Below, in pieces: positions 30,559-35,117 of a stretch of 64,000 nucleotides of DNA. Source of the stretch: Chryseobacterium sp. MYb264. Lineage in GTDB: Bacteria > Bacteroidota > Bacteroidia > Flavobacteriales > Weeksellaceae. The notes beneath the pieces are model-generated. The model saw nothing but the letters and a program-made list of their open reading frames with translations, ran no database searches and had not been told where the DNA came from. Position 1 is the first letter of the stretch. Each line of letters begins with the position of its first letter. The stretch covers positions 1 to 64,000 of the forward strand of contig NZ_CP142422.1 of NCBI RefSeq assembly GCF_035974275.1. The letters run 5' to 3'. A program made the translations under genes and the position numbers.

Positions 30559-30566
30559 TATATTTG
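30559..30566 (+). promoter_or_regulatory. -7 element TATATTTG of the RiPP cluster
   Basis: TATATTTG matches TAnnTTTG and lies 39 bases before the precursor ATG. A TTG at 30542-30544 could be part of the -33 box, with spacing slightly short. No terminator was recognised between the GH97 stop and this site. Confidence 0.6.
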
Positions 30567-30605: not shown

Positions 30606-30860
30606 ATGAAAAAGAAATTCAAAATCACAAGCAATCTTGAGCAAAAAGAAATTCTTAAGAAATCAATTCAAAATTCTGAAAATGAAAATGTAGATCTTTA
30701 CAAGTCTATTTTCGGGGGAATCAATAATTTAGGCATTACTCCAGGAATAGGTGGTGGTGGCGGAGTTATCATTGCGCCTCCGGGAGATAGTTGCGATGTA
30801 GTATCTATTTCAGGTGCATCTGCTGCATATGATAGACATGAAACATTTTTAAGAGCTTAA
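30606..30860 (+). CDS. RiPP precursor peptide of a radical SAM/SPASM cyclophane-type cluster
   Basis: The 84-residue peptide has a charged helical leader (1-36, LEQKEILKKSIQNSENENVD), a Gly-rich hinge (PGIGGGGGVIIAPPG, 46-60) and a short C-terminal core (DSCDVVSISGAS, then AAYDRHETFLRA). The last residues hold three consecutive triplets that start with an aromatic residue: Y75-D-R, H78-E-T and F81-L-R. Ring closure from an aromatic side chain to the third residue of such a triplet is the known activity of triceptide maturases. It has its own promoter and is separated from the maturase gene by a hairpin. There is no Sec signal. The family is not known to me; the precursor call rests on context and layout. 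Confidence 0.82.
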   Translation: MKKKFKITSNLEQKEILKKSIQNSENENVDLYKSIFGGINNLGITPGIGGGGGVIIAPPGDSCDVVSISGASAAYDRHETFLRA

Positions 30861-30882
30861 TTTGCTGATTTTTTAAAACTTT

Positions 30883-30912
30883 AGTTCTTCGCTAGTTAAA
30901 TAGCGAAGAACT
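30883..30912 (+). terminator. Perfect 12-bp hairpin between precursor and maturase genes
   Basis: AGTTCTTCGCTA and TAGCGAAGAACT form a perfect stem with loop GTTAAA, followed by TTATTTATT. A leaky terminator here would give more precursor than enzyme, as is common in RiPP operons. It could also simply stabilise the precursor mRNA. Confidence 0.75.
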
Positions 30913-30930
30913 TTATTTATTGATAGAGAT

Positions 30931-32172
30931 ATGGTTACTTCATTTGTTCTGAAGGTTGCAAGCAGATGCAACCTCAACTGTTCGTATTGTTACATGTATA
31001 ATTTAGGGGATAAGACTTATCTGAAACAGCCTAAATTCATGTCAATGGATACAATGACAATATTCGCAGAAAAACTATCACGTTACAGTGATGAACATGG
31101 CCTGAAATCCTTCCAGATTGTTTTTCACGGTGGTGAGCCCTTATTATATCCAAAAGAATTTTACAGGGAAAGCATAAAAATATTCAGAAAAAAACTCAAT
31201 GATTCTTATTTTGACTTTGTTCTTCAAACTAACGGCGTAGGCCTGGATGAAGATTGGTACAGTCTTTTTAATGAATTAAATATTCGAGTGGGAGTGAGCA
31301 TAGACGGCCCCAAAGAATACCACGATAAATACCGCGTTTTTCATAACGGGAAGGGATCTTATGATGAAGTCCGGACTGCCATACAGCTCGGCTTGGATAA
31401 AGGAATGCATGGTGTACTATCCGTTGCCAACCTTAATATCAGCCCGCAGGAACTCTATCAGGAATTTAAAGATCTCAACGTTCTAAGTTTTAATCTTCTA
31501 CTGCCTGACGGACATTTCGACAAATTGCCCGATGGTATTATCAAGGAAAAAGTTAATACCAATGATTATACACCGTATGCCGATTGGCTGATCGAACTCT
31601 TTGCCATCTGGAAAAATGATCCAGACCGCCCAAATATGAGATTCTTTAAAACATTGATCCAGCTTATCGCAGGTGAAGAGGTCGGAGATCAAGCGCTCGG
31701 ACTCAGAAAAAACGGGGTAGCTATCCTGGAGACCAACGGAAATCTGGAAGTGGCAGATTCTATAAGAGCATGCTACGAAGGAATCACCAGAAATGATATT
31801 AACATCCATACCCACGAAATAGATTCTGTACTGGAAGATCCCTTATTTGACATCTACCTCAATTCTCACCAGATGGTTAACGAAAAATGCCTTAACTGCC
31901 CAATCTACGAAATATGTGGCGGTGGCTTCCTTCTCAACAGGTATTCGAACGAAAATGGATTTGATAATCCTACAATCTATTGTCACGATATGATAAAACT
32001 GGTAAGTTATATCCAGAATGATTTGATAAACAGTCTGTCTGATGAAGTTTGTAAAGAAATGGATCTTACAAGAGTTTCATATCATGAAATTGTTGAAGAA
32101 CTCGAAAATAAAGGAGCTGTTTCTATTCAGAAAGACATTAAAGATAAACTATTAGCCTACAGTTTAGCATGA
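30931..32172 (+). CDS. Radical SAM/SPASM peptide maturase, cyclophane-forming (FxsB-like)
   Basis: The 413-residue iron-sulfur enzyme makes a 5'-deoxyadenosyl radical to modify the precursor. The radical SAM cluster motif is C13-NLN-C17-SY-C20, inside FVLKVASRCNLNCSYCYMYN. This opening closely resembles the FxsB-type cyclophane maturases (VLKVxSRCNLxCxYCYxY). The SAM-contact motif GGEP is at 67-70. The SPASM domain supplies auxiliary cluster ligands C281, C320, C323, C329 and C351 (CLNCPIYEICGGG). Its stop overlaps the next start (ATGA), so the two are translationally coupled. Codons use C and G more than in the Sus genes. Confidence 0.93.
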   Translation: MVTSFVLKVASRCNLNCSYCYMYNLGDKTYLKQPKFMSMDTMTIFAEKLSRYSDEHGLKSFQIVFHGGEPLLYPKEFYRESIKIFRKKLNDSYFDFVLQTNGVGLDEDWYSLFNELNIRVGVSIDGPKEYHDKYRVFHNGKGSYDEVRTAIQLGLDKGMHGVLSVANLNISPQELYQEFKDLNVLSFNLLLPDGHFDKLPDGIIKEKVNTNDYTPYADWLIELFAIWKNDPDRPNMRFFKTLIQLIAGEEVGDQALGLRKNGVAILETNGNLEVADSIRACYEGITRNDINIHTHEIDSVLEDPLFDIYLNSHQMVNEKCLNCPIYEICGGGFLLNRYSNENGFDNPTIYCHDMIKLVSYIQNDLINSLSDEVCKEMDLTRVSYHEIVEELENKGAVSIQKDIKDKLLAYSLA

Positions 32173-32999
32173 GTTTAAGAAAAGGAATTAAAGTATATCA
32201 TCGCGATATTCAGGACATCAAAGATCAGATCAGTATCAATTCGGGAGTAAGTTCTGTTAAAAATACAAATGCTGAAATCGAATATTACAACAATGCTTAT
32301 CTGCCTAATATGGATTGGCGCAGTCTTACAGATTCTGAATATAGGAAGATTTCTACAGCTGATGTCGACAGTAAAATATTTAATACGCTAGGTGTTGGTG
32401 TCATTCCGGAAGAGTTACAGGATTTATTTAAAAAATTAGATCTCAATGAGTGTGAATCTCTTTTTGATGTTCCGAAGAAATTTCAGGAAAATGAAACACT
32501 CACTAAACAGATTAATGAGTTAACAAATGTTTTTCTGGATGAGAAATCTTTACAAAGAAATTATAAGTTTCACCGGATTGCCAGGTCTCTTCCCGATATG
32601 CAGAGCACAACCTTCCATCATTTGGGTCATAATACCTTTAAGTATACAGGTCTGCACATTGATAAAAGCAGTTTTTTTACCCCTCATACTGCCTATAAGT
32701 CTGGAAACAGGATTTCGATCAATATCAGTAAAGAATCCAGATATCTGTATTTCGTTAACTTAACGCTTAGGCAGATTTATGGTGAGGTGCAGAAAAAATA
32801 TTCTGAGAAAATAACGTCTGACAATATTGTTGAACAGTTTTTTAATCACTATCCCGGATACCCCGTTCTGAGACTGGAAATAAAACCTTACCAATACTAT
32901 ATTGCTCCTACAGATAATTTTATCCATGATGGTACCACGCTCGGAAATAAAGACTTTGATGTCACCATGGTCTACGTAGGAATATTTGACAAATACTGA
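32169..32999 (+). CDS. Putative non-heme Fe(II)/2OG-type oxygenase, RiPP-associated, paralogue 1
   Basis: The 276-residue protein is a paralogue of the next gene product. Both start with a K-x-GIK-x-Y segment and INSGV. Both share H-x-D-x-S (H163, D165), a second His (H173), GNRI (R181), ESRYL (R191) and APTDN-x-x-HDG-x-TLG (H253). The H-x-D...H spacing fits the facial triad of Fe(II)/2-oxoglutarate oxygenases. The Arg that usually follows the last His and binds 2-oxoglutarate is not obvious, so the co-substrate is uncertain. Cyclophane RiPP clusters with such oxygenases are known. The gene overlaps the maturase by four bases. Confidence 0.72.
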   Translation: MSLRKGIKVYHRDIQDIKDQISINSGVSSVKNTNAEIEYYNNAYLPNMDWRSLTDSEYRKISTADVDSKIFNTLGVGVIPEELQDLFKKLDLNECESLFDVPKKFQENETLTKQINELTNVFLDEKSLQRNYKFHRIARSLPDMQSTTFHHLGHNTFKYTGLHIDKSSFFTPHTAYKSGNRISINISKESRYLYFVNLTLRQIYGEVQKKYSEKITSDNIVEQFFNHYPGYPVLRLEIKPYQYYIAPTDNFIHDGTTLGNKDFDVTMVYVGIFDKY

Positions 33000-33004
33000 A
33001 TCTC

Positions 33005-33880
33005 ATGAAAAAACTAAAATCCGGAATTAAAATATATTCAGATCATAATGGCGGAACTCTTCAGATCAATTCAGGAGTTATTCATCATACCCAACAGATG
33101 CCCAACGAATTTATTTTCAGAGGTGAAAAGTTTTTACAGCAGTACGAGCCTGAAGCCCATCTGCCAAAACGAGACTGGCGTACACTCAATCCGCAGGAAT
33201 ATAAAATCATCAACGGAGATCATAAAAACAAGAAAGATTACAATTCTGTATTTACAGGGGAACTGCCTGAAAATATCCGTCGCCTTTTTAATGAGCTGGA
33301 TCTTGGAACAGCAACTTCTGAAGAAGAAGTGTTTGATAAATTCAGGCAGAATAAGGAAATGGTAGACGAGATTAATATCAGTGTCAATGAGTTTTTACAG
33401 CATATTTCACTCGCTCCATTCAGGTTTATGAGTCTTGCTACCAACTTTGCCAATAGCGAAATCGTATCCTTGGACAGAAGAAAATTGTCTGAAGGACAAT
33501 CTATTGCCGATCTTCAATTTATAGGAGTTCATAAAGATAGTTCAAAAGATATGACCCTGCACACCGCCCATAGATTTGGGAACAGAATAACATTTAATTT
33601 AGGAAAAGAATCACGTTATTTACTGGTCATGAATCTTTCGATGCGGCAAGCCTATAATATGATAAGAAAAGAAATAGATCTGAAAGAAAATGAGGTGACT
33701 AACAAAAACATAACCTCATATTTCCTGAAGCTTTTTCCGGATTATCCTATGCTGAAGATAGAGCATAAACCTCATCATTTTTATATTGCGCCAACCGATA
33801 ACTGCTTCCATGACGGATCAACTCTTGGAAGCCGATCCCTGGATATTGTCATGATTTATCTCGGTAAGTTTCTCATTTAA
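33005..33880 (+). CDS. Putative non-heme Fe(II)/2OG-type oxygenase, RiPP-associated, paralogue 2
   Basis: The 291-residue paralogue keeps the same candidate metal ligands: H176 and D178 (VHKDSS), H186 (LHTAH), R194 (GNRITFN), R204 (ESRYL) and H269 (CFHDGSTLG). Identity with paralogue 1 is highest over the last 120 residues, and the N-terminal 150 have diverged. The start lies 5 bases after the previous stop. Two retained copies with intact motifs suggest two separate oxidation sites or a heterodimer. No transmembrane segment is present, so it acts in the cytoplasm before export. Confidence 0.72.
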   Translation: MKKLKSGIKIYSDHNGGTLQINSGVIHHTQQMPNEFIFRGEKFLQQYEPEAHLPKRDWRTLNPQEYKIINGDHKNKKDYNSVFTGELPENIRRLFNELDLGTATSEEEVFDKFRQNKEMVDEINISVNEFLQHISLAPFRFMSLATNFANSEIVSLDRRKLSEGQSIADLQFIGVHKDSSKDMTLHTAHRFGNRITFNLGKESRYLLVMNLSMRQAYNMIRKEIDLKENEVTNKNITSYFLKLFPDYPMLKIEHKPHHFYIAPTDNCFHDGSTLGSRSLDIVMIYLGKFLI

Positions 33881-33892
33881 TATTATTTTCCT

Positions 33893-35050
33893 ATGAAATA
33901 CACTTTCACGTTTTTATTTTTAACTATATGCTACCTCCAGATTATGGCTCAACAAAAGCTGCCTGTGGTAAAGGCTAATTCGTCTAAAGCAATCTTTCTT
34001 GAAGAAGATAATGGTCTGAAAACAGACTGGAATATTGATCCGTCTATAAAACCGGATATTTATACAGTTTCCAAAATAAGTAAAGGGTCTAAAACGGTAA
34101 AGATAAAAACAGATATTGATTCCATTAGAATTACCGTGAAAAAAGGAGAGAAAAAAGATTTTATTATTCTTCTCAAGGATAAAGATTCATGTCTAACAAG
34201 AATCGAAAGTGCTGTCCCTAAAGATTTCAGTACTGTACGTCCTGCTTTTCATGACAGTATTCGTCTAGCGATCAATGAGCAGAATACCATGTTTGTAAAA
34301 ACACTCCTAAATAAAACAGATTCTCTTGTTCTTAATTTTGATACTGGAAGCAACAATCTCTCCCTGACAACGGAAACACTGAAGGATAAAATTAAAGAAC
34401 AACTGAAAGGAAGAGTGAATGTTTTATCCATAGGAAACAGAAAATATGATGGCTTCAGAATTTATCAGGTTGAGCTATCCGGACACGGAACTGACGGAAG
34501 ATTCGGCTGGGACCTGTTTGACGGAATGGTAGTAGAGTTGAACTATGACCAAGGAATAATGGTCGTGCACTCAGAATTACCAGCGTCTGTAAAAAAAGAT
34601 AAGGCCTATCAACCATTGAATATCATCTATTTTGACAAACTTTTTTTCGTTGAAACGACTATAAAACAGGGAACAAAAACTCTGAAAGATTGGTTTTTGT
34701 TTGATACCGGATATCAGAGAACTGTCATGCTGGATGGTCCTCTGCTGAAGGAACAGCAATTTCCGACCGATCAGATGAAAATAATAAAAAAAGTCATTAT
34801 GAAAGGTGGTCAGGGAAATGAAATTCCGGTTATTACTGCCAATCTGGAATCTCTTAGTCTGGGGAAGTATCAGCTTAAAAATATTCCTTCTCAGCTTCTT
34901 TCCGAGAGCAGACCAATCATTGATAAAAAGATGAATATTTTAGGTAATGAAATTTTGAAAAGATTTAATGTCTTTCTGGATTTTCAGAATAATATAGTCT
35001 ATATAAAACCTAATAAACTCTTCAATGATGAGTATGTTGAAAAAAAGTAA
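33893..35050 (+). CDS. Secreted retropepsin/pepsin-like aspartic protease of the RiPP cluster
   Basis: The 385-residue protein has a signal peptide (MKYTFTFLFLTICYLQIMAQ) and two aspartic protease motifs: VLNFDTGSNNLSL (D150-T-G) and WFLFDTGYQRTVML (D271-T-G). Each is followed by a hydrophobic strand, so one chain may supply both catalytic aspartates. The N-terminal 120 residues look like a beta propiece. It starts 12 bases after the second oxygenase and is followed by a terminator, so it is the last cluster gene. Leader removal outside the cytoplasm is the simplest role, but this is inference. Confidence 0.82.
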   Translation: MKYTFTFLFLTICYLQIMAQQKLPVVKANSSKAIFLEEDNGLKTDWNIDPSIKPDIYTVSKISKGSKTVKIKTDIDSIRITVKKGEKKDFIILLKDKDSCLTRIESAVPKDFSTVRPAFHDSIRLAINEQNTMFVKTLLNKTDSLVLNFDTGSNNLSLTTETLKDKIKEQLKGRVNVLSIGNRKYDGFRIYQVELSGHGTDGRFGWDLFDGMVVELNYDQGIMVVHSELPASVKKDKAYQPLNIIYFDKLFFVETTIKQGTKTLKDWFLFDTGYQRTVMLDGPLLKEQQFPTDQMKIIKKVIMKGGQGNEIPVITANLESLSLGKYQLKNIPSQLLSESRPIIDKKMNILGNEILKRFNVFLDFQNNIVYIKPNKLFNDEYVEKK

Positions 35051-35084
35051 GACTGACTGTAAAATAAATATTTCTTAACTTTAG

Positions 35085-35117
35085 AATCCTTAAAGACAGA
35101 AACTTTAAGGATTTTTT
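35085..35117 (+). terminator. Terminator of the RiPP cluster
   Basis: AATCCTTAAAG and CTTTAAGGATT make a perfect 11-bp stem with a 7-base loop and a T-run. It marks the 3' end of the operon. Confidence 0.88.

Follow-up and report, generated by a model that had tools for sequence, protein, structure and literature searches.

A 64,000-nt stretch of the Chryseobacterium sp. MYb264 genome (contig NZ_CP142422.1, positions 1 to 64,000; here called the window) contains, at positions 30606-35050, a compact gene cluster that is probably an operon for a ribosomally synthesized and post-translationally modified peptide (RiPP) of the triceptide kind, belonging to a multi-oxygenase family of Bacteroidota. 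Its five plus-strand genes encode an 84-residue RiPP precursor found beside the maturase in relatives (gene A, 30606..30860), a 413-residue radical SAM/SPASM maturase of the cyclophane type with a CNLNCSYC motif (gene B, 30931..32172), two paralogous Fe(II)/2-oxoglutarate (2OG) oxygenases of 276 and 291 residues (C1, 32169..32999; C2, 33005..33880) and a 385-residue pepsin-like aspartic protease (P, 33893..35050). The open reading frame coordinates agree with the layout described in an earlier sequence-only reading of this DNA, with a 4-base overlap followed by gaps of 5 and 12 bases.

A family search with C2 (loci and genomes are designated below by L and G numbers) matched 30 of 296 genomes, the source genome included, and in 20 of the 29 other loci (L031-L050) the precursor, the maturase and both oxygenases stood together, bearing out their earlier grouping as one cluster; because these loci were found through C2, the independent part of this co-occurrence is the precursor and the maturase. 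Two loci (L051, L052) held a maturase with one oxygenase, and the remaining seven (L053-L059) only a 32-residue oxygenase remnant. A species-genome collection scanned with an oxygenase alignment yielded 31 loci, from Chryseobacterium, Chitinophaga, Longitalea, Niastella, Mucilaginibacter, Flavobacterium, Aquimarina, Tenacibaculum, Kordia, Paraflavitalea and a Bacteroidetes metagenome-assembled genome. Of 41 loci counted, the 22 of the Chryseobacterium type, among them the window, had two oxygenase copies; five had three, 10 had four and four (L051, L052, L089, L090) had a single one. The distinct subtype suggested by the sequence-only reading is thus supported, and widens to three- and four-oxygenase clusters in Chitinophagaceae, Sphingobacteriaceae and Flavobacteriaceae. 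Further genome draws, which include some genomes already known, gave matches in 3 of 397 (family of G435), 6 of 394 (family of L074) and 11 of 399 (family of L080), and a phylum-wide draw of 395 genomes, too thin alone, gave three, the source genome among them; these low counts indicate that the clusters are widespread but rare. Plasmids searched by tblastn held only homologues below 60% identity, and a scan of viral contigs gave no homologue. Since no description was found in the literature searched, in which we recognised no paper on the multi-oxygenase family, MicC or a cyclophane YhhC, we consider clusters with two, three or four copies in several Bacteroidota families to be new here. The main triceptide papers, Sugiyama 2022 and Nguyen 2020, may already describe clusters of this sort.

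Precursor alignments divide gene A into a leader of residues 1-38 ending in DLYKSIFGG (30606..30719) and a core of residues 39-84 that comprises a Gly/Pro-rich linker, a single Cys and a C-terminal motif (30720..30857). We compared 43 precursors similar to those of the window and L074, leaving out L075 (contig stopping short of the precursor), L085 (genome shared with L042), genomes already used (L060, L062-L072, L146, L147, L176), loci in which no core of this type was recognised (L051, L052, L089, L090, L145, L148, L178-L184) and L198, whose cluster is cut by the locus end. The FGG leader end was kept in 41 of them (exceptions L078 and L082), and all 43 cores carried exactly one Cys and the motif [AG]-Y-[DNS]-[KR] followed by F-L, with Lys at the last motif position in 25 and Arg in 18; the position two before Phe was Asp in 37 and Glu in 2. 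Both the loci read and the alignments thus show the 84-residue peptide conserved beside maturase homologues, in line with the precursor role assigned to it earlier. The window's genome gave no second precursor copy (next match only E 0.53), and the window precursor matched no NCBIfam family at E up to 1, including the YhhA model NF041705, on which Vibrio YhhA scored 61 bits as a positive control. Elsewhere, two precursor genes occur in L079, L081 and L177, the second copy lying beyond the outer membrane protein gene in L081 (= L176) and L177. Lipidation of the invariant Cys, an idea prompted by excerpts of PMC12636315, was dropped because no lipobox or signal peptide was seen in the window's leader by eye.

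The gene B product can be placed by its sequence among the radical SAM/SPASM enzymes, as the CxxxCxxC cysteines C13, C17 and C20 and the C-terminal SPASM cysteines C320, C323, C329 and C351 were invariant in 13 aligned rows; the Radical_SAM profile PF04055 matched with 67 bits. The best NCBIfam model was YhhB (NF041707; 348.1 bits, curated cut-off 445), with FxsB (TIGR04269) at 315.9 bits against a curated cut-off of 370. The top scores therefore go to RiPP maturases rather than to a non-RiPP SPASM clade, and the earlier label FxsB-like holds in that the enzyme is closest to cyclophane-forming RiPP maturases, but it is strictly neither FxsB nor YhhB, both cut-offs being missed. In the YhhA/YhhB/YhhC system of a Vibrio echinoideorum plasmid (L152; NF041705, NF041707, NF041706), precursor, FxsB-like maturase and 2OG-Fe(II) oxygenase stand in the same row, and the maturase is 34% identical to that of the window. 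The annotated YhhA contains GAYDRTHNRHNRG, sharing A-Y-D-R with the window core, but has 47 residues against 84, the GG leader being a feature of the window type. According to excerpts of PMC11002830, YhhB joins C3 of Tyr to Cβ of Arg, and also C2 of His to Cβ of Arg. From this bond, the shared A-Y-D-R and the conservation of the motif, we predict by analogy a three-residue cyclophane from Tyr to Arg at Tyr75-Asp76-Arg77 (30828..30836, plus strand), and corresponding Tyr-Arg/Lys cyclophanes across relatives. Triceptides are defined by an aromatic residue crosslinked to the one two places on; the motif that would carry such a bond, Y-[DNS]-[KR], is present in 43/43 cores. FxsB and the triceptide enzymes (TIGR04269; XncB, OscB, MscB, YxdB, HaaB) share the maturase family and the predicted ring over i and i+2; by contrast, the window maturase lies under the FxsB cut-off, and several oxygenase paralogues would tailor the peptide.

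C1 and C2 have the HxD...H triad (H163/D165/H253 and H176/D178/H269, respectively) in a predicted double-stranded beta-helix fold, as in Fe(II)/2OG oxygenases; the metal ligands are invariant among aligned paralogues, and sequence and predicted fold support this enzyme class. Their sole sequence relative in the PDB at E up to 1 was MicC (PDB 9vkm; E 1.7e-23 for C1 and 7.5e-17 for C2), an alpha-ketoglutarate (alphaKG)-dependent non-heme iron oxygenase that shares the HDGST end motif. Neither window oxygenase matched the YhhC model NF041706, nor did one oxygenase of L074 or that of L149, against 253 bits for Vibrio YhhC as a positive control, and BLASTP of C1 against YhhC gave a best E of 1.8. 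YhhA/B/C, earlier named as the closest type, therefore remains alike in maturase and core motif, but its single oxygenase belongs to a different family from the two to four paralogues found here. A tree of 85 oxygenases recovered the clades o1 (99/92), which includes C1, o2 (100/96) and o4 (99/92), with o3 not resolving as a single clade; C2 fell in a Weeksellaceae clade, sister to all non-o1 copies (o2+o3+o4) of other loci. The maturase also matched the radical SAM cyclophane synthase ChlB (PDB 9gm3; E 2e-58), which is fused to an alphaKG-HExxH hydroxylase domain, whereas the window encodes separate HxD...H enzymes. For ChlB, excerpts of PMC12636437 describe a cyclophane that forms first and Asp and His that are then hydroxylated, and they state that hydroxylation by ChlH needs the preinstalled cyclophane; this dependence provides a model for the step order, ring before oxidation.

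We propose that A would be made in excess over the enzymes, owing to a hairpin between A and B, and that B would bind the leader and, by analogy with YhhB, link the beta carbon of Arg77 with C3 of Tyr75 within A-Y-D-R. Once the ring is formed, C1 and C2 would hydroxylate one residue apiece, within the ring or close to it, plausibly residues that nearly all cores hold, for example the Asp/Asn that separates Tyr from Arg/Lys or the acidic residue before Phe. A Peptidase_C39 ATP-binding cassette (ABC) exporter encoded outside the window would cut after FGG and export the core, and P might, in the weakest step, trim or mature the peptide outside the cytoplasm. The product would be an oxidised, cyclised peptide, and the additional oxygenases of relatives could oxidise further residues, each paralogue taking one.

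No C39 gene was found within the 64-kb window. In a survey of 45 loci, a Peptidase_C39 ABC exporter was present in 16 and an OMP_b-brl_3-type outer membrane protein in 20; C39 occurred in 8/8 three-oxygenase and 4/11 four-oxygenase loci, none being seen in those of Kordia, Aquimarina and Tenacibaculum, and Pfam confirmed C39 in L074 and L048 and the outer membrane barrel in L074 and L051. Double-glycine leaders handled by C39 exporters combine a GG end with a C39 gene in the cluster; the window precursor has FGG, and the C39 gene lies elsewhere in the genome. In L048 the cluster, including P, lies between C39 and HlyD genes, whose homologues (88% and 78% identical, respectively) stand together at 4.19 Mb in the window's genome, around another small peptide gene, and this pair most likely exports the window's peptide. 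The same genome has a further peptide locus at 4.59-4.60 Mb (L111), where a C39 exporter and a radical SAM protein accompany two small peptides that contain GG.

P has the two lobes of a pepsin-like aspartic protease, each with a D-T/S-G motif (DTG at 150-152 and 271-273 in the window) kept in 11/11 aligned rows, and an N-terminal hydrophobic stretch. The relatives of its predicted fold are a putative endopeptidase of Bacteroides fragilis, renin and plasmepsin, the model being weak over residues 124-204, the span with the first DTG motif. It occurred in 21/45 loci (19 of the window's type, L048 and L077); of the 20 full-set loci, 17 have it after the other genes and L048 has it upstream, whereas L049 and L050 have none within 13 kb; in L040 it is split across two frames. 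The secreted aspartic protease proposed earlier thus stands as to its class and its start, signal-peptide-like by eye, but it lies near the cluster in fewer than half of the loci surveyed.

One oxygenase group, o4, also goes with a core residue. Arg stands four residues before the ring Tyr (Tyr-4) in 15/15 precursors (13 loci) with o4 and in 0/28 without, which hold Ala, Gly, Asp, Ile or Lys there, and Tyr-4 is the sole position among 33 in the core that separates o4 from non-o4 clusters. The cores of L074 (o4; SNLRSRASAYDKHDTFLQAIG) and L175 (no o4; SNLRSKASAYDKHDTFLQAIG) are identical from two residues past the Cys, except for Arg/Lys at Tyr-4. This match suggests, without proving, one oxygenase per residue; weighing against it, the Tyr-4 Arg could be a recognition residue rather than an oxidation target. 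It appears somewhat unlikely that oxygenase number reflects neutral duplication or drift and that the o4-Arg match stems from shared ancestry and chance. In its favour, o4 and Tyr-4 Arg each change just three times on the maturase tree; the best tree has three independent pairs, too few for a sign test, which needs at least six changes, and one pair lies on well supported (starred) branches, the traits agreeing there; and six of the 35 labelings of three of the seven clades have some separating position. However, a fixed separating residue arises in only the real labeling (1/35), none of the 43 precursors pairs o4 with another residue at Tyr-4 or Arg with a lack of o4, the near-identical L074 and L175 cores differ at this very site, and the metal ligands are invariant. 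Tracking of a C-terminal extension by o2 was rejected, since a separator appeared only if Chryseobacterium-type loci were left out and 28/112 clade labelings have one.

If C1 and C2 instead did other chemistry on the ring peptide, such as a crosslink via the invariant Cys, desaturation or backbone cleavage, the product would be polycyclic or cut. This would account for a Cys kept in every core though the ring needs none, and excerpts of PMC12636437 mention alphaKG enzymes of RiPP pathways that oxidatively cleave the backbone; the same excerpts, however, describe characterised RiPP alphaKG activities as rare and largely hydroxylation, and with no sequence sign of Cys chemistry and an o4 link that points to Arg, not Cys, we consider it unlikely. 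We judge it very unlikely that the peptide acts inside the cell, its missing exporter marking a changed function in the window's branch: the 64-kb window does lack a C39 exporter, an outer membrane protein gene of the above type and the RNA element described below, but the FGG is kept, a close C39/HlyD pair exists in the genome, other clusters are also without C39 in reach, and P starts like a secreted protein by eye.

In most clusters outside the window's type, a pseudoknot-like RNA with the consensus GGGCAATTGCCATGTCCTTACTGATGGC lies 5' of the precursor gene, 31 bases from the start codon in L074; sites of this 28-base element include L074:6412-6439, L049:4368-4395 and L083:6351-6378. Its two interleaved helices (an H-type pseudoknot) were paired in 144/144 cells over 16 distinct rows, against 27-55% for sliding helix partners. 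Three pairs changed on both sides, a number reached by 11 of 500 shuffles, and the seven further pair types observed were reached by 141 of 500. The 17 element rows were trimmed by hand and exclude L144, L177 and L073, the last being shifted by one base; they are therefore a chosen set. Run over 61 sources, the RNA model found 22 sites, each 5' of a precursor gene, one each in L048-L050, L073 (weak, E 0.24), L074, L076-L084, L086-L088, L144 and L174-L177, and none in the window, L031-L047, L061 or the single-oxygenase loci; L075 had no upstream DNA to scan. A 20-base pattern with at most two mismatches matched in 9 of 11 genomes, with second sites (two mismatches) elsewhere in G1778 and G1790; two matches came from the reversed pattern used as a control. 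Rfam gave nothing above gathering score for seven loci and positions 20000-45000 of the window, and only matches far below it for three small stretches. We regard the element as a candidate new cis-regulatory RNA. It is present in L048-L050, which form the sister group of the window's type, so the simpler reading is that the window's clade has lost it.

The window's clade also differs in its genomic site. GH97 genes were present in 93/93 genomes of the genus searched, and a GH97 gene stands beside the precursor in all of L031-L047 and L061. Among the best 30 GH97 loci, five (own included) have the cluster directly after GH97, and 24 of the other 25 have one of the window's three downstream genes within 1.5 kb, sometimes not adjacent, L210 having none. 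In the window's clade the cluster thus resembles an insertion into a starch-utilisation locus, and it has no exporter, outer membrane protein or RNA element with it. Taking these observations together, we tentatively speculate, giving it somewhat less than an even chance, that the family follows a modular oxidation code, in which each paralogue serves one residue and is gained or lost with its target, under control of an H-type pseudoknot that was discarded on the move into the starch-utilisation locus. If paralogues do divide the work by residue, oxidation sites, usually solved only by product isolation, would become predictable from gene content, and the natural series of two, three and four oxygenases with closely similar cores makes this idea directly testable, while the pseudoknot-like RNA offers a way into the question of how their expression is turned on.

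Upstream of gene A, the promoter-like TATATTTG (30559..30566, plus strand) fits the Bacteroidota -7 consensus TAnnTTTG and also occurs 5' of the cluster in L061, L034 and L040; a sigma-70 scan of the region found 18 sites where shuffles averaged 17.7 and so lends no support to a promoter. An attenuator-like hairpin with a T-rich tail lies between genes A and B (30883..30912, plus strand). By our own stem-and-T-tail criterion, a hairpin follows the precursor gene in 33 of 43 cases, which include a few first copies of double precursors and stretches not all reaching the maturase; its arms are AGTTCTTCGCTA/TAGCGAAGAACT in the window and AGTTCTTCATCA/TGATGAAGAACT in L034, both differing between the loci. 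A terminator-like hairpin lies 3' of gene P (35083..35115, plus strand), the region containing four terminator-like sites where shuffles averaged 2.8 (sd 1.7), a count that proves nothing by itself. Sites matching the promoter, hairpin and terminator of the sequence-only reading are thus seen, although the scans alone do not prove them.

Homologues of the enzymes also occur in other settings. On the Nostoc plasmid pTCL26-01_E (L149), an oxygenase of the family, 28% identical to C2, adjoins a cyclophane maturase of the GrrM/OscB kind, with a small upstream peptide containing W-D-N and W-N-D; the family thus seems to act in a second class of cyclophanes as well. A C1 homologue (26%) in L153 (Methylocystis parvus plasmid) has TonB-receptor and iron ABC-transport genes around it and a gene for nitrogenase component 1 nearby, a setting that does not obviously suggest a RiPP. 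The distant clusters L145, L179, L180, L181 and L183 combine two tandem radical SAM maturases with an oxygenase (two in L145), and in L179-L181 and L183 small GG-containing peptides lie upstream. The oxygenase C-terminus remnant of L053-L059 (seven genomes, five genus codes) is 75% identical to C2 and nearly the same in DNA across genera, with differing 3' flanks, as if borne by a mobile element.

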